A program made the translations under genes and the position numbers. DNA of 64,000 bases from Ramlibacter alkalitolerans (lineage in GTDB: Bacteria; Pseudomonadota; Gammaproteobacteria; Burkholderiales; Burkholderiaceae_C), in NCBI RefSeq assembly GCF_016722765.1, contig NZ_JAEQND010000014.1, positions 62,001-126,000 on the forward strand. The letters are read 5' to 3'. Of the stretch, positions 28,463 through 52,917 are shown in pieces (positions within the stretch are counted from its first letter, which is position 1; every line of letters begins with the position of its first letter). The notes under the pieces are model-generated. The model searched no databases. It saw only the letters and a list, made by a program, of their open reading frames with translations, and had not been told where the DNA came from.

Positions 28463-28555
28463 GCTGTCGGTGACCTATTCACATTGAGGCGCGCGCCGAT
28501 GCGTGGCGCATCCTGCAGGCGCAGGCATCCTCAACCCCCCGCCTGCACTTTCTCA

Positions 28556-29117: not shown

Positions 29118-29219
29118 GCGCGCAGGGTACAGCAGCACCGTGCTGGCTCGCCCGAATGAAGTTGCCCGCCGTGCTGCCGAGTGCCACACTTCGGGCCAGA
29201 TGAGCAGAGGAGGACGGAT

Positions 29220-29747
29220 ATGCGCGCGTTTGGCAGAACGATCGTCGTGGCCGCGGCAATTTGCTTGAGTCCTGGCGGCGCGTGGGCGGTTTACAAGTGC
29301 GCTGACGGGAATGGGCGCATTGCTTTTCAAGACACCCCCTGCCCGGGCGCTGGAACACAGTTCGACGTGAAACCCGCGGGCGGGATAGCGCCGGCACGTG
29401 AGCACACATCTTCGTCCAACGTCCCGCAGTCGGAGGCCGATCGGCTGGAGCGCATTGTTTCGGACAGCCAGAAGCAGCGCCGCAAGTTGGAGATAGAAGC
29501 ACGCCTGCTGCCGGACGCCGAGGCTGCCATGCGCACCCTGCGCAACCAGTGCGATGGGCAGATGGCTGCCCTACGCGCCCAGAAAGGTGCCGCGAACAAC
29601 AACCTGGCGGGAGCGACATGGGAGGTTTCCCTCTCAGGTGAAATGTCCGCCGTTGCGACGCGCTGTGACACCCGTCAGCGTGAGTTGCGCCAGGACTACG
29701 ATGCTCTCGCGAGGGAGTGCGCCGCGCTGGCCGGCTGCAAGCGGTAG
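29220..29747 (+). CDS. Secreted DUF4124-like protein
   Basis: A 175-residue protein with a clear Sec signal peptide (basic MRAFGR, hydrophobic core IVVAAAICLS, cleavage near AWA). The mature part opens with a DUF4124-like domain (VYKCADGNGRIAFQDTPCPG, slightly over-written by cysteines C28 and C43), then a charged coiled coil (about 75-105) and a second cysteine-containing helical part. GAGGAGGA lies 7 bases before the ATG. It is the last gene before the right attachment site, so it is probable cargo acting in the periplasm. Confidence 0.7.
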   Translation: MRAFGRTIVVAAAICLSPGGAWAVYKCADGNGRIAFQDTPCPGAGTQFDVKPAGGIAPAREHTSSSNVPQSEADRLERIVSDSQKQRRKLEIEARLLPDAEAAMRTLRNQCDGQMAALRAQKGAANNNLAGATWEVSLSGEMSAVATRCDTRQRELRQDYDALARECAALAGCKR

Positions 29748-29801
29748 GGCGACGTTGTAGGGGCGTTGTGCTATCTTTGCGGCTCGTCCGTCGCAGGCGA
29801 A

Positions 29802-29851
29802 GCCTTCACACGGCAGGGGTCACATGTTCGATCCATGTATCACCCACCAGA
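29802..29851 (+). repeat. Right attachment site (attR), duplicated tRNA-Val 3' end
   Basis: Fifty bases identical to 16791-16840. It lacks the acceptor 5' strand and D arm and is therefore only a tRNA fragment. Confidence 0.93.
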
Positions 29852-33262: not shown

Positions 33263-36016
33263 TCAATCGTAGTTTTCGTGCACGGCACGCTCAATGTGTC
33301 GATATTCGGACGGTCTGAGGTTCTGGTAATTTTGCGCCATGGAGACGGTTGACGATACCAGCCGAAGATTACCAAGTGAGAGCAGGCCATCGCTTGGGAG
33401 TCGATCAGTGACGCCCTCAACTACCACGCCCTCTATTTCATCAATTCCGTTTGTGAAACAGTGGTGTAGACGCGCGTTGCCTTCGATCACAACTAGCGAT
33501 CCGGCGTGCTGCTCGAAAACCGGCGGAGTGACGATGGAGCTCTTTCCTCCTTGAAGCTGTACCTGCACGGAGGCAAAGAAGCTGTACCCGTGTTCAGCCA
33601 GATCTGACATGAATGAACGCACCTGCAAGGCCTTGAATTCCTTGATGCGCCTCTGCATCACGAAGATCGCACGGGTCACCGGTATCCTTCGCGTTTCGAT
33701 CGAGGCTCTCTGGTACGTTGGGACGCTGAGGAGGCGATCGATCAGCTTCTGCGCTGCGCAAGGGGCATATGCAAGCTGTAGCGGCGAAGGCACCGCCCCT
33801 TGAATGTGGCGCGACACCAATTCAGTAACGATGTCCACGACAACCGGATCGCTGTCGCTAGTGTACAGGCGCACCTTTTCGTCCTCATAAATCGAGCCAG
33901 CCTGTGAGCCGTCAGGTAGGTACGTGAGGATTGTGCTCGCGCGATTTGTTCCGAGATCAAACGCGAATCCAGTGAACGGGAACCCGTCGGTGGTCAGTGT
34001 CACCGTCCCGCCCAGCAATGTGAGCAACTTTCGTCGTCGCTCTTCCTGTTCGCGAACCTTTGCCTCTAACTGGTCTAGCGGCGATACCAGCGCAATGACG
34101 GCCACACCGCGTCGCGCAAGAAGCAGCAGGCTTGGAAATACATGGTCCAGCCAGTAAGTGTCGCGGCCGCTGGCCAAGAAGGTTCGCCTGCATGCGTGGG
34201 TCTGACGCACCAGGAGAAGCATTTTCTCATCGAAGCCTTGAAACTCTTGTGCCGTCGCATCCGCCCGCAGTGCCGTTAGGCGCTCCCTCCTGAAGAACTC
34301 TCTCGCGCCCTTCACGCCGCGTCCGTAGAGAAACAGCTTGCTCTTAGGGCCGATCCGATCAAAATCTGTGGAGCGTATGGACCCTGTGCTAATTTGAACG
34401 GGATAGACGTTCGGCTGGAGTTTCAGCTGGATTTCGGACGCACTATCGATGACAGCCGCGCTCAGGCGCCTGCCGAATTCAACAACGTCGCGAACTGGTT
34501 TGCTCCCCGTGTCGTCCTCGACGAGCCGGAACGCCAAAATGCGCGAGAGTACATCGCGTTCGCCAGAGGTTCTACTTTGCTGGTTCAGCACATACGCCGG
34601 AAGGTTTGATACCGCACCTCCATCGAGAAGGATGGAGGAGCCTGCGCGAATCGGCTGAAAAAAGAAAGGAATGGTGCAGGAATGCCTCACGGCAAGGGCC
34701 ACACTCTCCTCACCAGCCGACTCGGATGACCACACTTTGGGTTGGCCGGTCGAGAAGTCTGTGGCAACGACGTAGAGAGGAATCGGTAGTTCCGAAAAAA
34801 GAACCGGTTTCTTGGTTGTGGAACTTCCCGGGCGCACAAGTTCGACCAGCCGCTGCTCCACCCAATCCCCCAATCGGTTCGAACCATGCAGGCCTCCGTA
34901 GGTGGCGACATCAGCAGCTTTTCGGAGCCTTCCCCATGTCACCGGGCGCAGAAGACGCGCCCAAAGCGGCAGCTTCTCCTCAAAGAACTTTTCTTTCTTG
35001 TTCGGCGTGTCGAGCAAGGGTAAGAAGTCTAGTGTCTGGAGGTGGTGCTTAAGATACGAAGGGGACGCACCGGCTGCGACTAACGCAGCGACGATGGAGC
35101 CGCCGGACGTTCCTGCGACACGGCCAAACGTTACGCCGGCTCTCCTCGCAGCGGTGTACGCGCCCGCATGCGCAGCTGCTCGAACGCCGCCACCTTCGAA
35201 CACCCCCCAGCAATGGAAGAAGAACTCAGTCTTCGGTCTCCCGCCCATGTTGCCTTGCCGGATTTGAGCGAGCAACCGCTGCGCCTCTCCCTGAAATTCA
35301 CGAGGGCAGTAGGTGCCGATGGCCCTCTGGACTTCTTGTGCGGTAACGCCGTCCTCACATACGTCCTGGACAAAGTCACACACGGTCTCGGAAGGCGCCA
35401 GCTGAAGCTTCGTCGCAAGAATCACGGCACGCGCTGCTTGTATCTTGGGCTGTGCAACCACATCAGCCATGAAGTCAAGGCGGCGCGACTTGAGAGCCAT
35501 TCCGGCTCCCCTGTCCAGCAAAGCTGGCACACCATGACATTGCGCCGGGAAAAAAAGCAGAGCGTTGACGTCGTAGTCAGCCGTCGCGGGTAGCGCGTCG
35601 AACGTCGCCGCCTGACGTTCTCGTTGGAAAAGAAAAGTGTTTTGAAGATTCCAGGCTTCGAGAGGCCCACTGTCACTTTGGATTCCGACGCCCCCGAATG
35701 GATTCTCGCGAGCACCTCTAGGGAAAAACTCGGCGATAGGGCGCGTGCTATCTACGACGAAGTCGAGGTCGCGGGACGGAAGAGGCGTTCGGTGGAGGAA
35801 CTCAAACAACCTGTCGCGCGCCCACCCTCCGAATACAACCATCTTCACCCGGTCCGAACAGACCTTCTTCAGGATTTCGGCCAGCTTGGGATCATTCGAT
35901 ACCAAGAGGTCGAATGCTTGCTGCATCTGGTGCGCAGCCGCATTGAGCGTGCTCGTGTCGAGAGGCTGAGAGCTTGGGTGTTCGCGGTCTGGCGGGAGGT
36001 CGACGGTTTCAATCAT
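33263..36016 (-). CDS. CCA/poly(A)-polymerase-type nucleotidyltransferase fused to patatin phospholipase
   Basis: A 917-residue multi-domain protein. Residues about 55-235 follow the class II nucleotidyltransferase head and neck: VVFGGWARDRL (G63-G64), RDLDFVVD (D83, D85), DYDVNALLFF and IQAARAVILATKLQL. Residues about 268-500 form a patatin: oxyanion loop GGGVR (275-279), nucleophile elbow GTSGG with S304, and DGG with D465. The last 400 residues hold an unassigned alpha/beta domain (LARRGVAVIALVSPLDQL) resembling a phospholipase D fold without its HKD residues. The ATG at 36016 starts just before the recognisable domains; the frame is open to 36367. The patatin would degrade membrane lipids, possibly gated by the nucleotidyltransferase part. 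Confidence 0.75.
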   Translation of the reverse strand: MIETVDLPPDREHPSSQPLDTSTLNAAAHQMQQAFDLLVSNDPKLAEILKKVCSDRVKMVVFGGWARDRLFEFLHRTPLPSRDLDFVVDSTRPIAEFFPRGARENPFGGVGIQSDSGPLEAWNLQNTFLFQRERQAATFDALPATADYDVNALLFFPAQCHGVPALLDRGAGMALKSRRLDFMADVVAQPKIQAARAVILATKLQLAPSETVCDFVQDVCEDGVTAQEVQRAIGTYCPREFQGEAQRLLAQIRQGNMGGRPKTEFFFHCWGVFEGGGVRAAAHAGAYTAARRAGVTFGRVAGTSGGSIVAALVAAGASPSYLKHHLQTLDFLPLLDTPNKKEKFFEEKLPLWARLLRPVTWGRLRKAADVATYGGLHGSNRLGDWVEQRLVELVRPGSSTTKKPVLFSELPIPLYVVATDFSTGQPKVWSSESAGEESVALAVRHSCTIPFFFQPIRAGSSILLDGGAVSNLPAYVLNQQSRTSGERDVLSRILAFRLVEDDTGSKPVRDVVEFGRRLSAAVIDSASEIQLKLQPNVYPVQISTGSIRSTDFDRIGPKSKLFLYGRGVKGAREFFRRERLTALRADATAQEFQGFDEKMLLLVRQTHACRRTFLASGRDTYWLDHVFPSLLLLARRGVAVIALVSPLDQLEAKVREQEERRRKLLTLLGGTVTLTTDGFPFTGFAFDLGTNRASTILTYLPDGSQAGSIYEDEKVRLYTSDSDPVVVDIVTELVSRHIQGAVPSPLQLAYAPCAAQKLIDRLLSVPTYQRASIETRRIPVTRAIFVMQRRIKEFKALQVRSFMSDLAEHGYSFFASVQVQLQGGKSSIVTPPVFEQHAGSLVVIEGNARLHHCFTNGIDEIEGVVVEGVTDRLPSDGLLSLGNLRLVSSTVSMAQNYQNLRPSEYRHIERAVHENYD

Positions 36017-36753
36017 CTGGTGTTCGATCGGTTCCCTGTGCACGACAGCTCTGGGAGTGGAGGGTACCAGACGGGCTGCTGCCAGATCTTGGATCCAGGC
36101 GAGTTGCGGTCTCGGTCGTCGGCACGTGCGAGCAAGGTTGACTTCAACCTTCGAGCGATGGCCGCTTCCGGGCCAGGAGCGGCCGTGTGTGGTTATGGAG
36201 CGGGTACTCGGCCAAACTGCGGCTTGGAAGCCCGAGAGGGGAATCTGGCGGATGACTATTCTTCCGGATCGCGCTCTTTCGGAACGGATCAACTTGACCG
36301 CCTCGACCGTAAATTCCAGCTGCGAACAGCGCCTACCGAACCCGCCGACGGTGCGATCCCCAACCAAGTACGAACCCTAGCGGGCGTCCGTGAAGGCTTC
36401 CAGGCTCGGGGGGAGCTAACAAGTGTCGGAGGCGCGTGCTAGCTCAGCGCGGTTTTCAAAGAAGCTTCGCGGGTCGCCAGCGATGCACTTCAGGTGTGCA
36501 TGCGAGGCGGAGTTGACGCGTCGGCGAGGGCTTGGTAGCCTGTCGCCGTTCGATTACTCCCCTCGCTTTCCGATTCGGGTCCGGAGAGACGTTGGCGCAA
36601 GCCGACGGCGCGGAAGTACTCGGGCAACGGCACCGACCCAACCGCCACCTAAGACTCCATCTGCGCTCGCGCGCACGCACGCTCCATGCGACCTCCGAGA
36701 CCCACGGAGGGGATGACGGTCCGAGATGGCAAGTGAACCAGGAGCGAATCATC
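36017..36753. other. Intergenic stretch between divergent genes
   Basis: The first 350 bases can be read as an upstream extension of the patatin fusion but the peptide is arginine/proline-rich and unlike a folded domain. The remainder shows no gene with a ribosome-binding site or family similarity. It must contain the promoters of both divergent units, but no clear hexamers stand out. Confidence 0.4.
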
Positions 36754-36999
36754 TTGACGACCAACTCGAAGAGCGCGCGGGACAACCGCGCAAACCAGCT
36801 CAATCCCCTCCATCCCGCCTACTACCTGTCGAGGGGCAAAAGCCCTGCGGAGGCCCAGCGCCGAGCGCGTGAGAGCACGTTCGCCGTGACTAGCCAGGTT
36901 CCGCAGGTAGTTCCGGACGTCAGCGCCCATTCCGCCCCGTCGGGGAAGACGCGCAAGCAGTCCACTTCCTGCAACCGGCCACCGGCGTTCTTCGGCTGA
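36754..36999 (+). CDS. Small DNRANQLNP-motif protein, possible peptide substrate
   Basis: An 81-residue frame with a TTG start at 36754 and AGGAG 9 bases upstream. The motif DNRANQLNPLHPAYYLSRG followed by a charged helix (SPAEAQRRAREST) resembles a recurring family of short bacterial proteins (D-N-R-x-N-Q-L-N-P-x-x-x-A-Y). The C-terminal half is serine/proline-rich and ends with a single cysteine region. It is 216 bases upstream of the glycosyltransferase-radical SAM operon on the same strand. A GTG at 36733 is an alternative start. It may be a regulator, or a peptide acted on by the operon. Confidence 0.45.
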   Translation: MTTNSKSARDNRANQLNPLHPAYYLSRGKSPAEAQRRARESTFAVTSQVPQVVPDVSAHSAPSGKTRKQSTSCNRPPAFFG

Positions 37000-37215
37000 C
37001 TCGACCGACACCCGCCGCGGGTAGCAGCCGAGGGGCTGGGTGTTCCTGGACGAAATCCATGACCAGCGAACGCCGACCACGGGGGCATCCGGCCTCGTGC
37101 GAGAACTCACGGCCAAGTGCGTCAGCTCCGCTGCGTCGAAATGCGCCCAACGCGGCGTCGTTGGACAGGCGTCCCGCAACGCACACAGCGCAACTGCAAT
37201 CCAGGAGATCGCGCC

Positions 37216-39567
37216 ATGAAGATCCTCAAAGTCATCCACGGCTACCCCATGCGCTACAACGCCGGCTCCGAGGTTTACAGCCAGACGCTTTGCCACGCGC
37301 TCGCCGAGCGCCACGACGTGCACGTGTTCACGCGTGAGGAGGACGCATTCGCGCCCGACTTTCGGCTGCGGCTCGAGCGCGACCCAGACGATGCCCGCGT
37401 CACCGTGCATATCGTGAACAACCCACGCCTGAAGGATCGGTACCGTGCCACAGGCATCGATCAGCGCTTCGCAGAGGTCCTCGACAGAGTTAATCCGGAC
37501 GTCGTCCACGTCGGCCACCTCAATCACCTGTCGACGTCGATGCTGCGGGAAGCGGCGGTGCGCGAGATTCCTATCCTTTTCACCCTGCACGACTACTGGC
37601 TGATGTGCCCGCGTGGGCAATTCATGCAGATGTTTCCGGAGGATCCGAATGACCTCTGGGCTGTCTGCGATAGCCAAGCAGACCGCAAATGCGCCGAACG
37701 CTGTTACGCGCGCTACTTCAGCGGAGCGTCCGGCGAACTGGAGACGGATGTCACGTACTGGGCGGACTGGGTGGGCCGCCGAATGCGACACGTGCGCGAG
37801 GTGACCGAGTTTGTCGACCTGTTCATCGCGCCTTCCCGGTACCTCCACGACCGATTCCGAGATGAATTCAACATTCCAGAGAGCAAGCTCGTCCACCTCG
37901 ACTACGGCTTTGCACGAGAACGAATGGCGGGTAGGAGTCGAGTGCCGGGGGAGCGGTTCACGTTCGGGTACATCGGCACGCATATCCCGGCGAAGGGAAT
38001 CCACGATCTGATACAGGCTTTCGGCAAGACCAAAGGTGACGCGCGCCTGCGAATCTGGGGTCGGCCGCGCGGACAGGACACCGACGCGCTCAAGGAGATG
38101 GCCGCCTCGCTGCCTGCAGGCGTAGCGAGCCGCATCGAGTGGCTTCCCGAGTACAGGAACCAGGAGATCGTTCGGGACGTCTTCGATCGCTGTGACGCCA
38201 TCGTCGTCCCGTCGGTTTGGGTGGAGAACTCGCCCCTCGTAATTCATGAAGCGCAGCAGGCGCGCGTTCCCGTGATCACGGCCGCCGCCGGCGGAATGGC
38301 GGAATATGTGCATCACGAAATCAACGGGCTGCTTTACGAGCACCGCTGCGTCGCGTCCATGGCGGACCAGATGCAGCGCTTGGCCGACTCGCCGGAACTC
38401 ACCGTTCGCCTCGGCCAGCGGGGTTACTTGTACAGCACAACGGGCGAGATTCCGTCGATTCAAGACCATGTGATCGCTGTCGAGAGGCTCTATGCCGATG
38501 TCCTCAGCCGCCAAGCATCCGCTCGAGTTACGCGTTCGGCAGGCCCCTGGCGTATTACGTTCGACACCAATCCCGACACCTGCAACCTGCGCTGCGTCAT
38601 GTGCGAGGAGCATTCACCGCACAGCATCCTTCAGATCCGGCGAAAGGAGGAGGGCCGGCCCCGTCGGCTGATGCCCTTCGAGATGATCGAACGCGTGGTC
38701 GCTGACGCGGCGCCGCACGGCCTGCGGGAGATCATTCCGTCCACCATGGGCGAGCCGCTGCTGTACGAACACTTCGACGACATTCTTGAGCTCTGCCGGC
38801 GCTACAAGGTCAAGCTGAATCTGACCACCAACGGCACGTTCCCGCGGCGCGGTGCAACTGCCTGGGCCGAGCGCATCGTCCCCGTAACCTCGGACGTGAA
38901 GATCTCCTGGAATGGGGCGACGAAGGCCACCCACGAGGCCATCATGCTGGGCGCCAGGTGGGAGAAGGTGGTCAAGAACGTCCGTGACTTCATTGCGGTG
39001 AGGGATGCGCATGCGGCAACCGGCGGCAACCGCTGCCGCGTCACCTTCCAGTTGACATTCCTGGAGTCCAACGTCGACGAACTGGCCGATATCGTGCGAC
39101 TCGCCTTGCGCCTCGGCGTCGACCGAATAAAGGGCCACCACCTTTGGGCGCACTTCACAGAGATCCAGGATCAGTCGATGCGGCGAAGCCCTGAAGCCAT
39201 CGAACGATGGAATCGCGCAGTGCTCGCTGCCCGGGAGGCCGCCCGCGAGCAAACGCTCCCGAATGGCAAATACGTCCTGCTGGAAAACATCTTCCTGCTC
39301 GATGCCGCCGCGAAGGAGGATCTGGCCCCTGGCGGTCCATGCCCGTTCCTCGGACAGGAGGCGTGGGTCAGTGCCGTGGGTCGATTCGACCCCTGCTGCG
39401 CGCCAGACGCTCAACGTCGCACACTGGGTGAATTCGGTAATCTCGACAGTGCGAGCTTCATGGAGATCTGGAACGGCGATTCCTACCGCGAGCTCACGTC
39501 GACGTATCGCAATCGCCGGCTCTGCGTTGGCTGCAACATGAGGAAGCCGGAAGGGAGCAAGACATGA
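37216..39567 (+). CDS. Glycosyltransferase (GT4) fused to radical SAM/SPASM domain
   Basis: A 783-residue fusion. Residues 1-420 are a GT-B glycosyltransferase: an N-terminal acceptor domain (KVIHGYPMRYNAGSEVYSQT), FGYIGTHIPAKGIHDLI at the domain joint and the nucleotide-sugar E-x7-E-like segment VENSPLVIHEAQQARVPVI. Residues about 445-783 are a radical SAM enzyme with the [4Fe-4S] motif C456-N-L-R-C460-V-M-C463 and a SPASM-like end with cysteines in CPFLG, DPCCAPD and CVGCNMRK. It thus combines sugar transfer with radical chemistry. AGGAGA lies 8 bases before the ATG. Its stop overlaps the next start (ATGA). The substrate is unknown. Confidence 0.88.
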   Translation: MKILKVIHGYPMRYNAGSEVYSQTLCHALAERHDVHVFTREEDAFAPDFRLRLERDPDDARVTVHIVNNPRLKDRYRATGIDQRFAEVLDRVNPDVVHVGHLNHLSTSMLREAAVREIPILFTLHDYWLMCPRGQFMQMFPEDPNDLWAVCDSQADRKCAERCYARYFSGASGELETDVTYWADWVGRRMRHVREVTEFVDLFIAPSRYLHDRFRDEFNIPESKLVHLDYGFARERMAGRSRVPGERFTFGYIGTHIPAKGIHDLIQAFGKTKGDARLRIWGRPRGQDTDALKEMAASLPAGVASRIEWLPEYRNQEIVRDVFDRCDAIVVPSVWVENSPLVIHEAQQARVPVITAAAGGMAEYVHHEINGLLYEHRCVASMADQMQRLADSPELTVRLGQRGYLYSTTGEIPSIQDHVIAVERLYADVLSRQASARVTRSAGPWRITFDTNPDTCNLRCVMCEEHSPHSILQIRRKEEGRPRRLMPFEMIERVVADAAPHGLREIIPSTMGEPLLYEHFDDILELCRRYKVKLNLTTNGTFPRRGATAWAERIVPVTSDVKISWNGATKATHEAIMLGARWEKVVKNVRDFIAVRDAHAATGGNRCRVTFQLTFLESNVDELADIVRLALRLGVDRIKGHHLWAHFTEIQDQSMRRSPEAIERWNRAVLAAREAAREQTLPNGKYVLLENIFLLDAAAKEDLAPGGPCPFLGQEAWVSAVGRFDPCCAPDAQRRTLGEFGNLDSASFMEIWNGDSYRELTSTYRNRRLCVGCNMRKPEGSKT

Positions 39568-40589
39568 TTGCGCCCCGAAGAGGACCCAGTGCAGAGGCCG
39601 CCCATGCAGTCGTCCTCCCGTCGGGACTGTCACAGAGCGCGATCGAGGCCATGCGCGACCTGTTCGGCCGGTCGATGGCCGAAGTCGCCGCACAAGCCAA
39701 GATGCGCGAGGAAGACATTGAGCGCGTGACGTCCGCCTGGAGCATGAAGGCCAACTTCGTCGCTCGGATGCTCTCAATCGCTGCGCCACGAATCCGGTCG
39801 CTCCTGCTGGAGCAGGGCAAACCCTGGACGGACATCGGCGAGCACGTGGATGCCACATTGTTCGTAGCGTCGCACTTGCGAGCGGAACCCACCCATGCCC
39901 ACCAGGACATCGCGTACAAGTGGAACCGGCCGGTTGATGCGCGATACGCGTACACGACCTGGTTGGCTCTGGACGCGTGCGGCCCCGGCTCCGGTGCCTT
40001 GACGTTTGGCAGGGCCTTCCCGCCCCTGCCGATCGTCGAGCGTCAGGACTTCCTCTGCCAAGAATTCGTCGATCACTCGACGACGCCGACGTGGCGGGAC
40101 GCGCAATTCGTGGCAGCAGTGGAGCGAGCCGACATGGTCGTTTTCGACGCATGTGCGTGGCACGCATCAAGCGCCTTCCGGGAACCCGGCCGACGACTGG
40201 CGCTGTCAATTCGCTGGGCCTCCAAGAGCGGCTGGGAACGCGCCGTGTCTCTCCCGAATCCCACCATCCGGCCCGTTTCCTTCGGGATGGACACATCGGG
40301 TGCGTTGCTATGTGGCCTCGTCAGGGCTGCGTGCGGCCGGCTGGCAGTTGAATCCGCACGGGGCGGCACTTATGCAACCGTCACCGAGTTGTTCCAGCAC
40401 CACCACCACGTCGTGGAGAGACTCAGTGCGCCAGCGAAGCGAAGCCTTGAGGACCTGAGACTCGCGCTCTCGCTTGAGGAGCGGCACGGGGGGCGTTGCG
40501 CCCCCGGCGTGTGGCGCGCGGTCCGAGATCACGCGGTTCCTGAACTCGTTCGGCTTGGCGTAGTGGAGGGCAGCCGTGAACTGGCATGA
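39564..40589 (+). CDS. Phytanoyl-CoA dioxygenase (PhyH)-like Fe(II)/2-oxoglutarate oxygenase
   Basis: A 341-residue protein with a cupin-type oxygenase core. The facial triad appears as H113-Q-D115 (THAHQDIAYKW) and a distal H200 (CAWHASSAF), with arginines in GRRLALSIRW that could bind 2-oxoglutarate. Family members hydroxylate small molecules or attached groups. The N-terminal 90 residues are helical and the C-terminal 100 residues are an unassigned helical extension. Overlaps the previous gene by 4 bases and the next by 14, so it belongs to a coupled operon. Confidence 0.78.
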   Translation: MIAPRRGPSAEAAHAVVLPSGLSQSAIEAMRDLFGRSMAEVAAQAKMREEDIERVTSAWSMKANFVARMLSIAAPRIRSLLLEQGKPWTDIGEHVDATLFVASHLRAEPTHAHQDIAYKWNRPVDARYAYTTWLALDACGPGSGALTFGRAFPPLPIVERQDFLCQEFVDHSTTPTWRDAQFVAAVERADMVVFDACAWHASSAFREPGRRLALSIRWASKSGWERAVSLPNPTIRPVSFGMDTSGALLCGLVRAACGRLAVESARGGTYATVTELFQHHHHVVERLSAPAKRSLEDLRLALSLEERHGGRCAPGVWRAVRDHAVPELVRLGVVEGSRELA

Positions 40590-42240
40590 CCTGAGCATCA
40601 GCCCGGACGGCACCCACCATCTGACGGTGGAGGGGGTACCAGCCTTCGCCGAGCGCTTCGACGCGGTGCTGAAGTTCCACCCGCCAGGGCTCGCCGCCGT
40701 TCAACGGGGGGATAAAGCCTGGCACGTCCGGAGCGACGGCTTGGCCGCGTACGAGCGGCGCTTCGTCCGCACCTTTGGCTACTATCAGCACCTTGCTGCG
40801 GTTGTGGCGTCAGATGGCTGGCACCACATCACGGTCGCCGGAAACGACGCCTACCTCGAGCGATACGCGTGGTGCGGCAACTTCCAGGAAGGCCGCTGCA
40901 GCGTGCGCGCTCACAATGGGGCGTATCACCACATCTGCACCGACGGCAGCGCCGCGTATGCGGAGCGATGGCGCTACGTCGGCGACTACCGTGACGGCAT
41001 CGCCGTCGTGCAGGCGGCAGACGGGCGCTCGACACACATTGACCGTGACGGAAAGCTCATTCACGGGCGTTGGTTCGTCGACCTCGACGTGTTTCACAAG
41101 GGCTTCGCGAGAGCGCGGGACGAGGGCGGTTGGACTCACATCGACCTTCGTGGCCGACCGATCTACTCGCGTCGCTTCGCATCGCTCGAGCCTTTCTACA
41201 ACGGCCACGCTCGTGTCGAGCGCGCCGACGGGGCGCTCGAGGTCATCGACGAGGCAGGAGAGGCCGTGATCGAACTGTGCCCCCCCCGACGGTCGGAGTT
41301 TGCCGCTCTCTCGGCAGACATGGTGGGCTACTGGAAGACGCAGACAATCGGCGCTGCGGTCGGGCTTGGTGTAATCGAGGAGCTTCCGGCGACTGAGGAA
41401 GAGGTCGCGAATCGACGCGATCTTCATCACGACGGGGCTCGCCGCCTGCTGCGGGCACTCGGCGAATTGGGTTTGGCGCTCAATAAGGCCGGCCAGTGGA
41501 GGCTCACGCCCCGCGGCAGCTTCCTGCGCTGCGATCATCCCCTCAGTCTCGCGGATGCGGCGCTCGAGTACGCCGGCCCTTTGTCCAGCGCCTGGACGCG
41601 GCTGCCCGATGCCCTGCGTCGGAACTCCGCCTGGACGGCTCCAGATGTCTTCGGGGAAGTCGCGCGCGACGAGGGCCGCCACATCGGCCACCACCGCATG
41701 CTGCGCAGCTATGCACGCCACGATTACGCCGAAGTATGTCGTGCCTTCGACTTACGTGGTGACGAGCGGGTGATCGACGCCGGTGGCGGGCTTGGTGCCC
41801 TCGGAAGGTTCCTCCTCGATGCCTACCCACGGGCTCAGGTGACAGTCCTCGAACGCCCCGAAGTGGTGGCGCTGGCCGAGGCAACTTACCCAAGGCTGCA
41901 GTGGCGCAGTGCGGATCTCTTCGAGGCTTGGGGCATCAATGCGGACGTCGTATTGCTTTCCCGGGTGCTCCACGACTGGGACGATGCGGCAGCGTGCCGG
42001 ATCCTGGCTCGTGCCCGGGCCGCGTTGCCCCCCGGCGGGCGTGTCTACGTCATCGAAATGCTCATGTCCGAGGGCGGCGTCGCCGGTGCCCTGTGCGATC
42101 TCCATCTGTTGACCGTCACTGGAGGCCGGGAGCGATCGGAGGACGATTTCAGCCGCCTGCTGGCCGCGACTGGGTTCCGGCTTGACGGTGTGCGGACCGT
42201 CGCGGCTCTGCCGTCCGTGGTGGTGGGAGTGGCGTCATGA
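40576..42240 (+). CDS. WG-repeat domain fused to O-methyltransferase
   Basis: A 554-residue fusion. Residues about 1-230 consist of six or so repeats of 33-40 residues with the pattern G-x-A-x-V ... H-I-x-x-x-G-x-x-x-Y-x-x-R/W (for example DGIAVVQAADGRSTHIDRDG and KGFARARDEGGWTHIDLRG), a WG/KWG-type beta-repeat. Residues about 235-340 form a winged dimerisation domain and about 390-554 a SAM-dependent methyltransferase with motif I VIDAGGGLGALG and an H-D-W-D-D catalytic-loop motif (VLHDWDDAAACRIL) typical of plant/bacterial O-methyltransferases. GTG start with GGAGGG 5 bases upstream; overlaps both neighbours. Confidence 0.85.
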   Translation: MNWHDLSISPDGTHHLTVEGVPAFAERFDAVLKFHPPGLAAVQRGDKAWHVRSDGLAAYERRFVRTFGYYQHLAAVVASDGWHHITVAGNDAYLERYAWCGNFQEGRCSVRAHNGAYHHICTDGSAAYAERWRYVGDYRDGIAVVQAADGRSTHIDRDGKLIHGRWFVDLDVFHKGFARARDEGGWTHIDLRGRPIYSRRFASLEPFYNGHARVERADGALEVIDEAGEAVIELCPPRRSEFAALSADMVGYWKTQTIGAAVGLGVIEELPATEEEVANRRDLHHDGARRLLRALGELGLALNKAGQWRLTPRGSFLRCDHPLSLADAALEYAGPLSSAWTRLPDALRRNSAWTAPDVFGEVARDEGRHIGHHRMLRSYARHDYAEVCRAFDLRGDERVIDAGGGLGALGRFLLDAYPRAQVTVLERPEVVALAEATYPRLQWRSADLFEAWGINADVVLLSRVLHDWDDAAACRILARARAALPPGGRVYVIEMLMSEGGVAGALCDLHLLTVTGGRERSEDDFSRLLAATGFRLDGVRTVAALPSVVVGVAS

Positions 42241-43553
42241 ATGAAGTTCAATGGCGGATTCCTGACTCGCTGATCAATCATCTTGCATGCGTGCCAGCAG
42301 ACCGCGCTGTCGTCGTCCTCCTCCGGCATTCCGTCCGTGACTACCTGGCGCCAGGAGACGCGGGCTACCACCTTCCGATCAACGAAGCGGGCCGCCGACT
42401 TGCCATGGAGCTTGGCGAGCGCCTGCGGGGCCGACTCCAAACGTTGCACGCAAGTCCGCTCGTCCGCTGCGTTCAGACCGGGGAGGCCCTTGCCGAAGGC
42501 GCATGCGCAGACCTGGCTGTGGTCCCCGATCGGCACCTTGGCGATCCGGGCATCTTTGTCATCGATGGCAGGCGAGCTTGGTCTCAGTGGCACGGACTCG
42601 GTCACGAAGGCGTGATGCGTCACCTCGTCAGCGAAACGGAGGCCCTACCTGGAATGGCCAGGCCTGACGAAGCCGCGCGCCTCCTGGTCCAGCACATGTT
42701 TGCCGTCGCGGCCGACCGGCCAGGCATTCATGTCTTCGTCACCCATGATTCGCTTGTCACGGCCACTGCGGCGCGCCTTCTCGGGCACCCACTGGAACGC
42801 GGAGACTGGCCCTTGTACCTTGAGGGCGCGTTCTTCTGGAAAGACGACAGCGGCGTCAACGCCGCCTATCGCGAGCGCCAGAGGCGGCGCAGCCTCCCCC
42901 TTTGCGGTCTCGACCACTGGGAGGTTGTCGAATTCGCCCGTCGAGAGATTGCGTCGACCGTCGGGCTGGATTCGGGTGCTCGGTTCTTCCTTGCAGGAGG
43001 CGCGTTCAAGACGCTGCTCACAGGGGCTGCGCCTCGAGACCTCGACTTCTGGGCCGCGTCCCAGCGCGATCGAGGGCTTCTCATCGACGCACTGCTAGCT
43101 CGAGGAGCTCGCCCATCGAGCTTTCGACCGTTCGCGGACGCCTTCGAGCTCGCCGGACGGCTGATCGAGGTGCCGCACAAAGTCGAGGCGACAACTCTGA
43201 CCGAACGGATCGAGAGGTTTGATTTGGGGCTCTCGGCCATCGGGGTCGAGCATCATCCTGACGGCGAATGGTCTGCTTGCATCCATCCGCTGGCAATTGA
43301 GTCGCTGCGTAGGAGAGAGGTGCTGCTGTTGAAGCCCCTGGTGAATTGGAAGTATGCGCTCGTGACACTTGAGCGCATGCGTCGCTATGCGCGCGAATTG
43401 GGATTTTCTGTGCGGCCCGAGGAGGAAGCCGAAGTCTGGCGAGTGTTTGAGGCGCAGCCAAACGAGATGCGGGCCGGAATGGCGGAGCGCTTTGGGCGCT
43501 GCACCGCCGGAGGCTTCGGCGTCGCCGAGGAGGTTGCCTCTCGATTCCCGTGA
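42237..43553 (+). CDS. Histidine phosphatase fused to nucleotidyltransferase-like domain
   Basis: A 438-residue fusion. The N-terminal half (about 20-215) is a histidine phosphatase (phosphoglycerate mutase-like) with R30-H31 in VLLRHSVRD and the second histidine in VTHDSLVT. The middle (about 245-330) resembles the head of class II nucleotidyltransferases: LAGGAFKTLLTG (G254-G255), RDLDFWA (D268, D270). The C-terminal part is helical. The pair of activities could remove and add phosphate or nucleotidyl groups on the same substrate. It is the fourth gene of the coupled operon (4-base overlap with the methyltransferase). Confidence 0.78.
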   Translation: MNEVQWRIPDSLINHLACVPADRAVVVLLRHSVRDYLAPGDAGYHLPINEAGRRLAMELGERLRGRLQTLHASPLVRCVQTGEALAEGACADLAVVPDRHLGDPGIFVIDGRRAWSQWHGLGHEGVMRHLVSETEALPGMARPDEAARLLVQHMFAVAADRPGIHVFVTHDSLVTATAARLLGHPLERGDWPLYLEGAFFWKDDSGVNAAYRERQRRRSLPLCGLDHWEVVEFARREIASTVGLDSGARFFLAGGAFKTLLTGAAPRDLDFWAASQRDRGLLIDALLARGARPSSFRPFADAFELAGRLIEVPHKVEATTLTERIERFDLGLSAIGVEHHPDGEWSACIHPLAIESLRRREVLLLKPLVNWKYALVTLERMRRYARELGFSVRPEEEAEVWRVFEAQPNEMRAGMAERFGRCTAGGFGVAEEVASRFP

Positions 43554-43583
43554 GTGGCTACCATCTCCGCAGGAGTGCGCATC

Positions 43584-44474
43584 ATGTTCAACGTCGACGC
43601 GGCTGAAGGCCGCACTGTTGCCCTGTACTGGGATTTCGAAAATATCCATGCAGGTCTTTGCGAAGAGAGGGAGCCGGGTTCATATCGCAATCCGGACGCC
43701 CGCTTTCGGCCCCAGGATCCGCTTGTGAACGTGCAAGCCGTGGTTGATCTCGCGGCGTCCTTCGGGCCTATCGCCATTAACCGCGCGTACTGCAACTGGC
43801 AGTTCTATGGCCGGTACCGGGACGCGTTGTTGCAGAACGCCGTCGAACTCGTTCAACTGTTCCCGCCTGGCGGTGCCGCAAAGAATGGCGCCGACATCAA
43901 GCTGTGCCTCGACGCGACGGAGGACATTGGCAGATTCGCCCACATTGGCACGGTCATCATCGTCGGCGGCGACAGCGACTTCATGCCCGTCTCGCAGAAG
44001 ATCAAGGCGGCCGGACGAACACTAATCGGCGTCGGAACGCGGAAGGCGACGAACCGGCACTGGGCCAAGAGCTGCCATGAGTTTCGGTATTACGAGAATC
44101 TGGTGGAAGTCAGGGCAGAGGCGGCGCCACCGGCATTGCCGGCGGAACAGCCGGCGATCGATTCCGCGGTCGCGGACGTGCCTGTATTGGGAAATCCCGA
44201 GTTACCGGCCGCCGAGGGGGAGGCCGTCGAATCGTCGTCACCGACGCCTGAGGGGCATGTGGACCTGATCCGCCGCGCGCTCCGCCTGCTTTCGGAGAAG
44301 CACGGGGATCCCTGGATCAATAAGGCGACGATCTTGCCGATGGTCAAGCGTCTCGACCCGACGTTTGACGTCACCGATCACGGGTACACAAGCTTCTCCG
44401 GGATGCTGAAGGAACTGGACGAGCTTGTTGAGGTGCGCAAGGGCGAGTACGACCAGCAAGTCCGCCTGCGGTGA
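43584..44474 (+). CDS. NYN-domain nuclease with C-terminal LOTUS/OST-HTH domain
   Basis: A 296-residue protein. Residues about 10-165 are a NYN (PIN-like) domain with acidic residues in ALYWDFENIHAG (D17), KNGADIKLCLDATED and VGGDSDFMPVSQ, the expected metal-binding set. After an alanine/proline-rich linker, residues about 225-290 form an OST-HTH/LOTUS domain (VDLIRRALRLLSEKHGDPWI ... HGYTSFSGMLKEL) thought to bind RNA. AGGAG lies 8 bases before the ATG at 43584. It follows the operon by 30 bases and is probably its last gene, suggesting an RNA-linked step or regulation. Confidence 0.88.
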   Translation: MFNVDAAEGRTVALYWDFENIHAGLCEEREPGSYRNPDARFRPQDPLVNVQAVVDLAASFGPIAINRAYCNWQFYGRYRDALLQNAVELVQLFPPGGAAKNGADIKLCLDATEDIGRFAHIGTVIIVGGDSDFMPVSQKIKAAGRTLIGVGTRKATNRHWAKSCHEFRYYENLVEVRAEAAPPALPAEQPAIDSAVADVPVLGNPELPAAEGEAVESSSPTPEGHVDLIRRALRLLSEKHGDPWINKATILPMVKRLDPTFDVTDHGYTSFSGMLKELDELVEVRKGEYDQQVRLR

Positions 44475-46206: not shown

Positions 46207-46363
46207 TGTTGTTCAACCTGGGTCTGGCCGTCGTCAGAGAAATCCCAGTCTCGGTGCTTTGCAGGGCTGGTCAACGGAGCGTAGCGTTCGGAAATAAGGC
46301 CGCTCTTGGCTTGTTCTCGGTCATTTGCTGCAACGCCGATCGGCACGGTAGGAGGAGGTGAGC

Positions 46364-49300
46364 TTGGATCTTGATGGGCTGGTGCTGGTCAACCGCGACT
46401 TTGGCTACTGCAAGATCACCGCGCACACGGGAAATAGCGTCCGTGTGAAGTTCATTGGAACGAATCGGGACGCTTGGTATGGTGTCCAGGTTGTCGCGGC
46501 GCAGAAAGACTTTAGATGGACGCCAATGCCTGCAGGGTTGAAATGCCGTGTACCTGATCGGGGCCTCTGCACGATCATTGAGGTTCCGTTCCAGCCTTCC
46601 AGCGCTCATGGGGTGCACGAGTACCTCGTGCTCTTTGACGGCGATGCGGGCGAGACGGCCAGGCTGACCGAGCGAGAGCTGTGGCCGATTCCCGGTAGCC
46701 TCGCCGAGACTCCGCTGACCCGCCTCACCAGCCTCCAAGGCGACTCGCTGCCGAACTTCCGCGCAAGGGAGGGCCTGTTGGCGGCTTTTCAACAGGTTGA
46801 TCGGGAGTCGGCAAACATTAGCGCGCTCGCTGCCAGCCGTGTCGCGCTGCTACCGCACCAAGCCTTTGTGATCGGCACCGTCATAGACGATCCGCTCTGG
46901 CGCTACATACTCGCGGACGAAGTCGGTCTGGGCAAAACCATCGAAGCCGGCGCCATCGCGCACCAACTGCTCAGCGAGAATCCCGATGCGCGGGTTCTCG
47001 TCCTATGCCCTGGCCCGCTGTCGCGCCAGTGGTTGTGCGAAATGCATTTGTCCTTCGGCGGGCGCGCCTTCCGCCTACTTGATCTGCACGACTCGTCGAA
47101 GGTCTCCCTCAAAGCCTGGCCACTGGTGATCTCTTCATTGAAGGTGGCCGCTCGGGATTACCGTGCCCGGATACTTGGCACGCAGTGGGACATGGTGATT
47201 GTGGATGAGGCCCACCAATTGCTGTGGAACGATGGCCATTACGGGTTGGTCGAGCAATTAGCCAGCGCTGCCCCGCGTCTGCTGTTGCTAAGTGCCGTTC
47301 CGGCACGCGAGCGCGATACAGAACTGATGCGGTTGCTACGGATGATCGAACCGGAACGCTACTGCGAGGGCAGTCCAGTAGTGGACCAATTCTCGACACT
47401 GTATGCAGCACAGTCCACGATTGGTCGGAGGCTTCGGATAGTCTCTCGTCAGCTTGACGACTCTGAGGATGTTGATCACGAACAACTCCAGAACGACGTG
47501 CATCGACTGTTGTCCATTGACGTGCTTCGGGAGGATGCGGATCTGCGCAACTTGGAGCGATTAGCGCAGGCGACTCAAGAAACCGCGGGCAGACTGCTTT
47601 GCTATCGACAGCTGGTCGACGAGGTGGTCTCGCGCTACCGCATAAGCCGACGGATTCTCAAGAATCGCCGTGCTCGCCTGGTCGACGCTGAATTGCTGCA
47701 CGGAGTCCCCCGCGCACTCATCACCGAGATCTACGAGCCGTCCGCGCTCGAGGCCCGGATCGCAGCCGAGGCGCTCGACCTGTTGTCCTCCCTGGCCAGC
47801 AGTTCAAGTTTAGATGCGCTTCAAGTCCTGTTCCGGAAGGTCGCACAGTCACTGTGCGATCCGGTCGGTCTCTACGAGATCGCGAACGCTTTGGTTGCGG
47901 GTGACGGCGGGACCAAGGTGGACATGCGGATCTTCGATGCCAATGCAGCCTTCGACTACGACGAACAGGATGCGGTGCTTGGAGGCTGCGCCGATGTCTT
48001 CGCGCCCGAACTCGACCCGTCCCGGCTGACTCGCTGGGTGAGCCTGCTGCGTGCCGCCATCGAAGTGCCGGAGCAGGCCCGAATCATGGCCTTGAAGGCC
48101 TGCCTGAGGCGACTCTTAGCCGAGGGATCCCGCAAGCTGCTCGTATTCGCTGGAACATTTGGCGCCGCCGAGTACGTGGCCGAGTCGTTGACTGCGGACT
48201 TCGGCAACGAGGCCGTTGCGTCATTCCGGCATGACCTGCATGACGACGAGAAGGAAAAGCAGGTCGCCCGCTTTAAGCGCGACGCGCAGTGCTGCATTCT
48301 AGTGTCCGATGAGTCCGGCGGCGAAGGTCGGAACTTCCAGTTCGCGGACGTGCTTGTGCACTTCGATCTTCCTTGGTCGGTTTCGGCGATGGAGCAGCGC
48401 ATCGGAAGATTGGACCGGATCGGGCGCGATCGGCCCGTCCGCTCGTTCGTGATCTGCCCCGCCGGGGGCCTCGAAGAGGCATGGCTGCACTGCCTAGACC
48501 AGGGCTTCGGCGTGTTCACACGCTCGATCAGCGGGCTGGAATTCATGCTTCATGCCACGGAACGACTTGCCGTGAAGACCGCGGTCGAGGGAGGGCCTGC
48601 GGCACTGGCCGACATGATCCCGGGTATCAGAGAGGCGAGTGAACGGGAACGTGCCACCGACGACGCCGAAGCCTTGACCGATGCGGCTTCGTTCCGCCGC
48701 ACGAGTCTCTACCTGCGGGCCACCGAGAGTCGGGCTGACGAGATGCTCGAGAAGTCGGTTCCCTCATACCTGCGTGCAATCGGCCGTGGAGATGCGGCCA
48801 GGCGGGTGACGGATGACAAGGACCCAAACCTCAGGATCTGGCGTCTGAGGCCGGAGGAGGTTACGGACTACAAGCTGGTCGGACTGGAACGACAGGGCGA
48901 GATTCCCCTAAAAGATTGCCATGGCACGTTCTCGCGTTCAGTCGCGCGAGACAGGCCCGATTTGGACTTCTTCGGAATCGGCCACCCTGTGGTTGACGCG
49001 TTAGCTGTAGCGATCAGGCAGCACATTCGAGGACGCTCGCTGATGGTCCGCATCGAAACCGACACGGTGACACCTGGATTGATCCTGCTTTCAGCATGGA
49101 GGGTGGTGCGGTTCACGTCAGAGGGAACTGAGAGCCTCACCGAACGGGCCTTGCGCTTAGTGCGTGGTCGGGTCGTCTGGGGGGCGGTAGATTTGGAGAC
49201 CGGGGAAGAGTTTGATGCTGCGATTGCCAGCAGGCTTGCGGCGGAACTAAGCAGTGAGGAGGCTGTTACCCATGACATGGCGCGCGACCAAGTGATTGAA

Positions 49301-49582
49301 CTGGTAAGCCCTGTGCAACGTTCATGGTCTGCCACCTTAAACGCCTTGATGGCGCGTGCAGCAGCGAAGGCCTTGGAGGCCTACAAGGCGAGGTACGGGG
49401 AAGCGGATGCGTCCTTCTGCGAGCAATTGTTGACAGAGGCCAAGGCCGTGGCCCGGACGCGATTGGACGAAGGGGACGAATATGCACAAGCTGTATCCGC
49501 GACACTGGACGCGATTCAGCGCGCGGTACTTGAATCGGATGTGCTCTGCCTATTAAAGGTCGATCCACTGCCGCAGCCATGA
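46364..49582 (+). CDS. dpdE: DpdE-like SNF2-family helicase
   Basis: A 1072-residue SWI2/SNF2 ATPase. Walker A is ADEVGLGKTIEAG (about residues 184-196), the DEAH box is VDEAHQLL (about 280), motif III LLLSAVPAR, and the helicase C half ends with QRIGRLDRIGR (about 678-688). The N-terminal 120 residues carry a small beta-rich domain as in RapA/HepA-type proteins, and a long C-terminal extension is unassigned. A TTG start at 46364 with GGAGG 5 bases upstream is favoured; GTG at 46358 lies too close to the ribosome-binding site. First gene of the Dpd-like operon; role inferred as DNA translocation during restriction. Confidence 0.75.
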   Translation: MDLDGLVLVNRDFGYCKITAHTGNSVRVKFIGTNRDAWYGVQVVAAQKDFRWTPMPAGLKCRVPDRGLCTIIEVPFQPSSAHGVHEYLVLFDGDAGETARLTERELWPIPGSLAETPLTRLTSLQGDSLPNFRAREGLLAAFQQVDRESANISALAASRVALLPHQAFVIGTVIDDPLWRYILADEVGLGKTIEAGAIAHQLLSENPDARVLVLCPGPLSRQWLCEMHLSFGGRAFRLLDLHDSSKVSLKAWPLVISSLKVAARDYRARILGTQWDMVIVDEAHQLLWNDGHYGLVEQLASAAPRLLLLSAVPARERDTELMRLLRMIEPERYCEGSPVVDQFSTLYAAQSTIGRRLRIVSRQLDDSEDVDHEQLQNDVHRLLSIDVLREDADLRNLERLAQATQETAGRLLCYRQLVDEVVSRYRISRRILKNRRARLVDAELLHGVPRALITEIYEPSALEARIAAEALDLLSSLASSSSLDALQVLFRKVAQSLCDPVGLYEIANALVAGDGGTKVDMRIFDANAAFDYDEQDAVLGGCADVFAPELDPSRLTRWVSLLRAAIEVPEQARIMALKACLRRLLAEGSRKLLVFAGTFGAAEYVAESLTADFGNEAVASFRHDLHDDEKEKQVARFKRDAQCCILVSDESGGEGRNFQFADVLVHFDLPWSVSAMEQRIGRLDRIGRDRPVRSFVICPAGGLEEAWLHCLDQGFGVFTRSISGLEFMLHATERLAVKTAVEGGPAALADMIPGIREASERERATDDAEALTDAASFRRTSLYLRATESRADEMLEKSVPSYLRAIGRGDAARRVTDDKDPNLRIWRLRPEEVTDYKLVGLERQGEIPLKDCHGTFSRSVARDRPDLDFFGIGHPVVDALAVAIRQHIRGRSLMVRIETDTVTPGLILLSAWRVVRFTSEGTESLTERALRLVRGRVVWGAVDLETGEEFDAAIASRLAAELSSEEAVTHDMARDQVIELVSPVQRSWSATLNALMARAAAKALEAYKARYGEADASFCEQLLTEAKAVARTRLDEGDEYAQAVSATLDAIQRAVLESDVLCLLKVDPLPQP

Positions 49583-52023: not shown

Positions 52024-52041
52024 GCGTTCATCCGACAGACC

Positions 52042-52917
52042 ATGTTCACAGACAACCCAACGATCCCGGCTCAGCTTGAAGTATTGCTGGACGTGGTTCA
52101 TGCAATGCGTCAGCGCAAGTGCAGCGCCGAGGCCCTCCGCCACTTGATCCAACCTGAGGGGCTACCGGGCGTAAAGCCCAACAGTGCGCAAGTAGACAAC
52201 CACTTAGCCGCGGCAAGAGAACTCGAGTTGGTGAAGGCCGACGAGAACCAGGACATCCGTCTGACCTATTCATTTCGAGGTGAGCATAGGGCCAAGCCAG
52301 CCATTCTGGCCGCCTTTGATTGCATCGCACTCGCCAATGCCAACGTGGAGAAATGGGCGGGGCGTTTCTATGCTTACATGATCGCGCAGGAGGACGACTT
52401 CAACGGTGGCCAGGCCGCGGTTGAAGCGTTCGCCAACAAATTCATGGTGGACCTGCCCTCCAGCGTCGACAAAGGCAATCCGATGAACCTGGAAAAACAT
52501 CGGGCGTTGATGCGTTGGTATCCATATGTTGGCATGGGTTGGGTGGACCCTTCTGGTGCGTTCAATGCGGACCCTACCGAGCGGCTACGTCGCGCCCTTC
52601 CCGTAATCTGGGAAGACGAGCGAAAGCTCGATGCCCAGGAATTTATGGATCGTATGGGCCGTGCCTGCCCGGAGTTAGATGGAGGTGCGCTGTTCAACGA
52701 GGTGACCGAGGCATTGTTTTCTGCTTCGGCGCGACAGTGCACACAGGCCCTCGCCACCGCGCTTCGCAGGCTCCACGACGAGGGGGTATTGCGGCTGCAT
52801 TGCCCGTCCGACAGTAAAGGCTGGAGCCTTGATAGGGCGGGACAAAGCCAAGTGACCGGTGAAGCCTCGAACCGCTTCGACGCGGTCGAGCGGGTTGGAC
52901 GGAGGTCCAAGGCATGA
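52042..52917 (+). CDS. dpdG: DpdG-like protein
   Basis: A 291-residue soluble protein with no catalytic motif. The N-terminus (about 10-75) and the C-terminus (about 225-275) each look like winged-helix domains (QLEVLLDVVHAMRQRKCSAE; LATALRRLHDEGVLRLHC). It is assigned mainly by size and by its fixed place between the RecQ-like and ATPase genes. Its stop overlaps the next start (ATGA). It may act as a DNA-binding adaptor. Confidence 0.62.
   Translation: MFTDNPTIPAQLEVLLDVVHAMRQRKCSAEALRHLIQPEGLPGVKPNSAQVDNHLAAARELELVKADENQDIRLTYSFRGEHRAKPAILAAFDCIALANANVEKWAGRFYAYMIAQEDDFNGGQAAVEAFANKFMVDLPSSVDKGNPMNLEKHRALMRWYPYVGMGWVDPSGAFNADPTERLRRALPVIWEDERKLDAQEFMDRMGRACPELDGGALFNEVTEALFSASARQCTQALATALRRLHDEGVLRLHCPSDSKGWSLDRAGQSQVTGEASNRFDAVERVGRRSKA

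Follow-up and report, generated by a model that had tools for sequence, protein, structure and literature searches.

A horizontally spread, putatively biosynthetic operon of Ramlibacter alkalitolerans and its candidate riboswitch leader

What do five closely packed genes in the genome of Ramlibacter alkalitolerans make, and do they belong together? They lie at positions 37,216 to 44,474 of a 64,000-nucleotide stretch of contig NZ_JAEQND010000014.1, called here the window. They encode a fusion of a family 4 glycosyltransferase (GT4) with a radical S-adenosylmethionine (SAM)/SPASM enzyme, a PhyH-like oxygenase, a WG-repeat domain fused to an O-methyltransferase, a histidine phosphatase-nucleotidyltransferase fusion, and a NYN-LOTUS protein. 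An earlier note on this DNA had proposed an undescribed five-gene modification operon. Our analysis suggests, with a probability of about 0.6, that the locus holds a mobile biosynthetic operon for a glycosylated, methylated natural product, with riboswitch-like leader control in some of its carriers. The operon consists of the first four genes. Two features that the earlier reader had passed over, a predicted structured leader RNA and a small peptide gene, lie just upstream (Table 1).

The operon in the window and among its relatives

The five open reading frames (ORFs) exist with the fusions first described, as found by an ORF check and Pfam and, for the nucleotidyltransferase half, by AlphaFold2 and Foldseek. 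The first four overlap by 4, 14, and 4 bases, as had been noted. A gap of 30 bases before the fifth gene holds only if the ATG at 43584 is the start codon; taken at its longest, the ORF opens with a GTG right behind the preceding stop codon. The frame of the first gene stays open in the 5' direction to a GTG at 37117.

Table 1. Features of the operon region, with coordinates in the window
Feature	Position	Strand	Basis and remarks
Predicted structured leader RNA	36560..36747	+	Infernal model R1, covariation
PK2 5' arm, anti-Shine-Dalgarno GCTCC	36681..36685	+	Pairs with GGAGC at 36741-36745
PK2 3' arm GGAGC, Shine-Dalgarno of the peptide gene	36741..36745	+	Pairing, covariation
Small peptide gene, TTG start, 81 residues, MTTNSKSARDNRANQLNPLHPAYYLSRG	36754..36999	+	Motif of a hidden Markov model; AGGAG ahead of the start
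GT4 glycosyltransferase-radical SAM/SPASM fusion, 783 residues	37216..39567	+	Pfam Glycos_transf_1, Radical_SAM, SPASM
PhyH-like Fe(II)/2-oxoglutarate oxygenase	39564..40589	+	Pfam 8e-8; accessory gene common to the symbiont clusters
WG-repeat domain fused to natural-product-type O-methyltransferase	40576..42240	+	Pfam WG repeat and Methyltransf_2
Histidine phosphatase-nucleotidyltransferase fusion	42237..43553	+	Pfam His_Phos_1 8.6e-10; AlphaFold2/Foldseek for the nucleotidyltransferase half
NYN-LOTUS protein	43554..44474	+	Pfam NYN, OST-HTH; neighbour outside the conserved system

Related loci were collected by scanning genome contigs with an alignment of the GT4-radical SAM protein, which gave 303 relatives among 329 candidate stretches; a scan of viral contigs gave two more. 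The set of 86 loci comprises the window, the best 80 of the 303 by score, the two viral contigs, genome G121, the phage record of the Wolbachia strain wMel, and one (L007) of three Arsenophonus plasmids with matches. Since the loci were selected by score, counts over them describe near relatives; the window GT4-radical SAM gene shows 51-81% best-segment identity to the 80 kept. For the epimerase, phosphatase, nucleotidyltransferase, PhyH, and NYN, the counts below refer to tblastn matches at E<=1e-6 lying on the strand of the operon, at any place in a locus.

The core in these relatives consists of a NAD-epimerase, the GT4-radical SAM/SPASM fusion, a WG protein (usually with an O-methyltransferase), a histidine phosphatase, and a CCA-type nucleotidyltransferase, usually in this order. 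The WG domain lies downstream of the GT4-radical SAM gene in 83/86 loci, and the remaining 3 end within the glycosyltransferase gene. The WG gene follows directly in most loci; in the window PhyH intervenes, and in L050 the two genes are 4.6 kb apart. The epimerase was found in 50/86 loci, directly upstream in 48 of them, the phosphatase in 46, and the nucleotidyltransferase in 26. This comparison does not bear out the five genes as a unit: NYN-LOTUS occurs in one of the 86 loci, the window itself, PhyH of the window type in eight (the window, the Wolbachia phage, the Arsenophonus plasmid, and five Rickettsiales loci), and the epimerase is missing from the window operon. A search of the ORFs of the other loci with NYN-LOTUS (phmmer) gave nothing better than E 0.018, and this gene looks like a chance neighbour. 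A possible epimerase remnant in the gap at 37000-37215 was rejected as a chance 11-residue match (E 5.1); the closest epimerases elsewhere in the genome share 28-31% identity.

The operon is horizontally spread. Its core recurs in Proteobacteria, Myxococcota, Planctomycetota, Verrucomicrobia, Cyanobacteria, and Rickettsiales, and the free-living carriers, some of them culturable, include Halomonas, Azospira, and Ectothiorhodospira. On the GT4-radical SAM tree, from which L007 and L089 (2/86) were left out, the nearest row to the window is that of Myxococcus, with a support of 88 in the Shimodaira-Hasegawa-like approximate likelihood ratio test. In draws of 398 genomes from the phylum, the GT4-radical SAM fusion (E<=1e-120) and the WG-methyltransferase (E<=1e-40) were each found in the own genome only, and the phosphatase was found in 2 of 150 family genomes (the own one and G121). 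A tblastn search with the WG-methyltransferase matched the three Arsenophonus plasmids at 34.5-37.1% identity, as well as Wolbachia phage WO of wMel. The symbiont genes adjoin an epimerase, a GT4-radical SAM gene, and a PhyH gene; in the Arsenophonus plasmid that was read, the GT4 and radical SAM parts are separate ORFs. On this plasmid, a 425-residue protein (13042-14319) continues the cluster; it is hypothetical in the record and reads like a serine hydroxymethyltransferase. A threonine aldolase is encoded on the opposite strand. Together with PhyH, these two genes may be reminiscent of nucleoside-antibiotic chemistry.

Residue conservation was examined in 77 full-length copies of the GT4-radical SAM protein; nine of the 86 loci were excluded, two with an internal stop and seven matching less than 2290 bases. 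The cysteines C456, C460, and C463 of the radical SAM motif (CxxxCxxC), those of the SPASM region (C709, C727, C728, C770, and C773), and also C527 and C607 are kept in all 77 copies. The glutamates E337 and E345 of the GT4 EX7E motif are equally invariant. Four further cysteines in the GT4 domain (C131, C151, C159, and C163), possibly a metal site, are likewise kept throughout. No NCBIfam family scored above its cut-off for the fusion among the 25 matches listed.

Structure models were built with AlphaFold2 for the third and fourth genes. The WG-methyltransferase model (27 sequences; mean predicted local distance difference test, pLDDT, 93.7) matched in Foldseek the natural-product O-methyltransferases DtpM, LaPhzM, CalO1, and MmcR. 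These matches, together with the co-conservation of the core, fit the logic of natural-product biosynthesis and agree with the notion of a modification operon put forward earlier. The best 50 matches listed all fall on the methyltransferase half, so the WG half is structurally unplaced. The nucleotidyltransferase half of the fourth gene had no Pfam match at E<=0.1; modelled in full (20 sequences, pLDDT 92.9), the protein matched RosC-type histidine phosphatases and CCA-adding enzymes.

The methyltransferase is fused to the WG domain in 52/83 loci. Of the 31 WG proteins scored as having none, some are truncated by contig ends; WG domains in these loci stand alone, are cut by the contig end, or are fused to other enzymes, namely a protein-kinase-like domain (with a WaaP/Kdo-like score) in L064, a P-loop kinase in L048, and a class II aldolase in L041. 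Locus L044 carries a carbamoyltransferase and a separate radical SAM/SPASM gene. By gene content, these four loci resemble an alternative branch of the pathway. In the 27 aligned WG-methyltransferase fusions, 35 of the 50 invariant residues fall within the first 235 residues, which form the WG half, and its invariant histidines at 15, 50, 84, 119, 154, and 188 are spaced by 34-35 residues. Two aligned symbiont methyltransferase halves lack the GGG cofactor motif, whereas their WG half is still conserved. Because the WG domain is conserved while its partner varies or loses this motif, we infer that the WG domain is the constant, substrate-handling module and the fused partner the exchangeable one.

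The leader RNA and the small peptide gene

The leader is about 190 nucleotides (nt) long, and 18 upstream stretches align across it. It is predicted to contain a hairpin P1, whose loop pairs downstream in a pseudoknot (PK1), a hairpin P2, a long stem P3 enclosing hairpins P4 and P5, and a second pseudoknot (PK2). The alignment holds 46 pairs in seven helices, two of which are the pseudoknots. Overall, 89.5% of the cells are paired, compared with 34.6-45.8% when the partners are slid; both sides change at 32 of the 46 pairs, and such changes occur in 89 cells, whereas shuffling gives a mean of 30 (0 of 500). The structure is therefore backed by compensatory changes, as in a riboswitch leader. 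P1 is the weakest helix (61.1% paired). PK2 (alignment columns 163-167 with 226-230) is paired in 97.8% of its cells, and its covariation lies mostly at the outer pair.

The covariance model R1, which contains neither PK1 nor PK2, matched the window at E 8e-30, the window being one of the 18 sequences from which it was built. At E<=1 it matched 26 of the 86 loci (the window and 25/85 relatives), 8 of which lie outside the building set. All of these matches end 256-1388 nt upstream of the GT4-radical SAM gene and on its strand, and no further match at E<=1 was found in the 1.52 Mb searched. Copies outside the model matter here, because a structure derived from sequences favours those sequences. 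Four of them, L043, L033, L042, and L057, are full-length. All four keep PK2 at 5/5 pairs, the outermost being A-U, U-A, U-A, and G-U, respectively; of the 6 PK1 pairs they retain 6, 5, 5, and 5. In the 22 full-length copies, the GCUCC of the leader can pair, at 4 or 5 of 5 pairs, with the Shine-Dalgarno sequence of the first ORF. This ORF is the peptide gene in 20/22; in L024 it encodes a degenerate peptide, and in L057 it is a different ORF. Such a pairing is the pattern that would be expected of a translational riboswitch, as far as sequence comparison can tell.

No Rfam match was obtained for the leader at E<=1, so that assignment to a class described there was rejected, and no riboswitch family reached its gathering score in 7 loci. 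In a search of 299 genomes of the phylum under strict filters, the own locus was the sole match. Ten of 21 cluster genomes matched the RNA, once each and at the operon; the other 11 have no RNA at their locus. A second model, R2, gave one addition ahead of the operon, in L040 (E 0.007), and its six matches at E 1-5 in five loci were treated as chance. A 16-base pattern pointed to 15 phage contigs; the covariance model was unsupportive (best E 0.072), and a leader in these contigs was rejected. The comparative evidence makes the leader a strong candidate for an orphan riboswitch of a new class.

The small peptide carries the motif DNRANQLNPxHPAYYxSRG, or, in a looser form, DNRANQLNPxHPAYxxSRG. 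A six-frame search upstream of the operon found an ORF with the looser form in the window and at 13 operon loci; a match in L011 was a chance stretch of another gene. A hidden Markov model of the peptide matched 24/86 loci at E<=0.003, in each case upstream of the GT4-radical SAM gene and on its strand, and three more matches at E 0.3-1 look like chance. Third codon positions account for 46% of the differences between nucleotides within the motif. Loci L009, L013, L015, and L021 carry the motif twice. No convincing match to the peptide was found in Pfam, NCBIfam, or the PDB. Far from the operon, L132 (G121:C1:3231824-3231991) holds another peptide-like copy (E 8.9e-13), which contains a single TGA.

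The motif also occurs away from the cluster, at the start of larger proteins in genomes G465 and G529 and in tandem peptides of about 50 residues elsewhere; 7 of 398 genomes drawn from the phylum matched the peptide at E<=0.001. A variant, DNRANQLNPNNDAYxxSRG (L091, L092, L093, L095, and L096), looks like a wider unnamed family in genomes without the operon. Nine cluster genomes with neither the RNA nor a local peptide were searched, and none (0/9) had the peptide elsewhere, with 150 candidates scored in each of four of them; the L066 and L070 genomes, with peptide but no RNA, fell outside this set. In the same search, 8/8 RNA-bearing genomes carried the peptide. In L018, L039, and L085, no peptide motif was seen between a weak partial RNA match and the epimerase.

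For the joint occurrence of RNA and peptide, 80 loci were eligible, and 6/86 with less than 400 nt upstream were excluded. Both features are present in 21 loci, the peptide only in 3 (L066, L070, and L076), the RNA only in 5 (L024, with its degenerate peptide, being one), and neither in 51. On the GT4-radical SAM tree the RNA requires 14 changes, at least 9 of them forced by well-supported branches, against 22.4 when shuffled. Of nine independent pairs, 5-7 (mean 6.6) show the peptide and the RNA changing jointly, and none shows changes in opposite directions (median p 0.016, range 0.016-0.063). No clear link of the RNA was seen in such pairs to the epimerase, phosphatase, or nucleotidyltransferase (median p 0.63, 0.5, and 0.22, respectively). 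The distribution suggests that the RNA and the peptide tend to be inherited together.

Proposed function, rival explanations, and known systems

Taken together, the enzyme families suggest the following path. The epimerase, where present, would supply an activated sugar, which the GT4 half would attach to the substrate, and the radical SAM/SPASM half would radically modify the same substrate. The WG domain might present the intermediate to a swappable catalytic domain. In the window this domain is an O-methyltransferase, and some relatives have a kinase, P-loop kinase, or class II aldolase in its place. Phosphate or nucleotide groups may be removed or added by the phosphatase and the nucleotidyltransferase, and PhyH may hydroxylate. 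The peptide might serve as substrate, as regulator, or in an accessory role. The product would be a glycosylated, radically modified, methylated natural product, and the leader would act as a riboswitch-type translational on/off switch, probably sensing the operon product or a precursor.

Several points weigh against this reading. The proposed enzyme path rests on family assignments. The PK2 check in the four outside copies was not blind, because three of them (all but L057) were known before the pairing was drawn. Folded singly, the window leader is no more stable than its shuffles (z -0.54). Four of the 26 R1 matches are fragments covering part of the model, in which PK2 is not judgeable. 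Moreover, the operon can do without the RNA and the peptide, since both are absent from 51/80 eligible loci.

Other explanations differ mainly in what the enzymes act on. If the locus encoded a ribosomally synthesized and post-translationally modified peptide (RiPP), the peptide with the DNRANQLNP motif would be the precursor, the GT4-radical SAM/SPASM protein would carry out its glycosylation and radical modification, and WG would be the recognition module. SPASM enzymes often modify peptides, the peptide gene heads the operon in 24/86 loci, and the doubled motifs resemble a multi-core precursor. However, the empty result in nine cluster genomes and the occurrence of the motif away from the cluster (G465 and G529 are examples) weaken the case for an obligatory precursor, and the missing motif in L018, L039, and L085 also speaks against it; we regard a RiPP as possible but rather doubtful. 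A cell-surface glycan is considered unlikely, although the GT4, the NAD-epimerase, and, in some loci, the kinase and the carbamoyltransferase would suit it, and an exopolysaccharide/lipopolysaccharide role has been proposed for the related Undecim Cluster (PMC9203015). Among the annotated genes, no polymerase, flippase, or polysaccharide export family was recognised (most accessory ORFs being unannotated), the O-methyltransferase fold matches small-molecule natural-product enzymes, and a structured leader with a peptide gene would be unexpected.

The leader might instead be an RNA on which, or with which, the encoded enzymes work, for instance a substrate of the CCA-type nucleotidyltransferase. 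The CCA-enzyme fold and the restriction of the RNA to the operon where searched would fit this, but along the tree the nucleotidyltransferase shows no clear association with the RNA (p range 0.03-1), the two share only 14 of the 26 loci that each occupies, and the Shine-Dalgarno pairing fits cis control, which makes such a role quite improbable. A defence system with NYN-LOTUS as an RNA-cleaving effector would suit the nearly complete system for 7-deazapurine in DNA (Dpd) close by. It is nevertheless judged very improbable, given that NYN-LOTUS is confined to a single one of the 86 loci and had no match at E<=0.001 to a PADLOC model, in a run that covered this one of the five proteins. The natural-product operon with leader control in some carriers is thus preferred here.

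The closest described system is the Undecim Cluster of Wolbachia prophage WO. It comprises WD0611-WD0621 (UC1-UC11) and is reported to be highly expressed in Wolbachia (PMC9203015); PMC12801941 describes its duplication in the wPau lineage and calls its functions currently unknown. The UC3 protein is a GT4-radical SAM fusion 52% identical to that of the window, UC4 is a WG-methyltransferase with 31.4-32% identity, and UC5 is a PhyH homologue. The window thus shares with it a GT4-radical SAM fusion clustered with a WG-methyltransferase. A homologue of UC2 is present in relatives only and not in the window, which has homologues of UC3, UC4, and UC5 and not all eleven genes; queries with UC1, UC2, and UC6-UC11 gave no tblastn match at E<=1e-6 in 29001-54000. 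PhyH follows the WG gene in wMel and Arsenophonus, whereas it precedes it in the window, and the window features set beside the Undecim Cluster include the phosphatase-nucleotidyltransferase fusion, the leader RNA, and the peptide. Because three of its genes are homologous to UC3-UC5, the gene set is not wholly unknown, and the claim that it was undescribed stands only in part.

Likenesses to three other systems are also partial. With translational riboswitches the leader shares a conserved structure 5' of a biosynthetic operon, a predicted Shine-Dalgarno-occluding pseudoknot, and compensatory changes; it differs in lacking an Rfam match and in that the peptide gene comes next in most full-length copies. 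With radical SAM/SPASM RiPP clusters the operon shares such an enzyme and a small peptide gene at its head, but here GT4 is fused to the radical SAM part, the peptide is not universal, and it matched no notable family. The phosphatase half is structurally closest to RosC of roseoflavin biosynthesis, and RosA is among the methyltransferase matches; these fold similarities, however, stand at 21-24% identity. Among the papers listed in a literature search, with subscription journals and bioRxiv outside its coverage, none dealt with the operon outside symbionts, the RNA, or the peptide; the leader RNA and the small peptide gene thus appear to be previously undescribed.

Genomic context and implications

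The surroundings agree with the earlier description of a defence-rich region. Downstream, the nearly complete Dpd system occupies 46358-61671 and runs on past the end of the window in contig stretch L004. DpdE, F, G, H, J, and K lie in the window, and DpdD lies at 1669-3738 of L004 (window 61668-63737). The opposite strand then carries a QueC-like gene and, after it, DpdB, DpdA, another DpdB, and DpdC. DpdI gave no match, and a 234-residue ORF at 55931 had no PADLOC match. The Dpd genes, which do match a known defence set, are a DNA-modification/restriction set separate from the operon. Upstream, at 16764-29849, a tRNA-Val has an integrase next to it, along with D5-type genes and phage genes for capsid and tape-measure proteins. 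The tRNA 3' end recurs as a 40-base repeat at 29810-29849, which probably marks the far end of an integrated element; the operon sits outside this element. Between them, on the minus strand at 33263-36367, lies the gene of a patatin phospholipase that ends in an inactive HKD domain (iHKD, Pfam) at its C-terminus; its N-terminal stretch reads like a nucleotidyltransferase by eye, with no tool match behind this reading.

A more far-reaching joint reading would be that a new, widespread class of pseudoknotted riboswitch senses the product of a new natural-product family, built on the DNRANQLNP peptide by the glycosyltransferase-radical SAM fusion with WG as the exchangeable presenter, and that the Undecim Cluster is a symbiont-adapted descendant; this is speculative and unlikely to hold as a whole. 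The comparison ties the core of the Undecim Cluster to free-living bacteria, so that its function becomes testable outside an obligate symbiont. Since no genome searched gave a match to the RNA anywhere but on this operon, the ligand of the leader would point to the product of the pathway.

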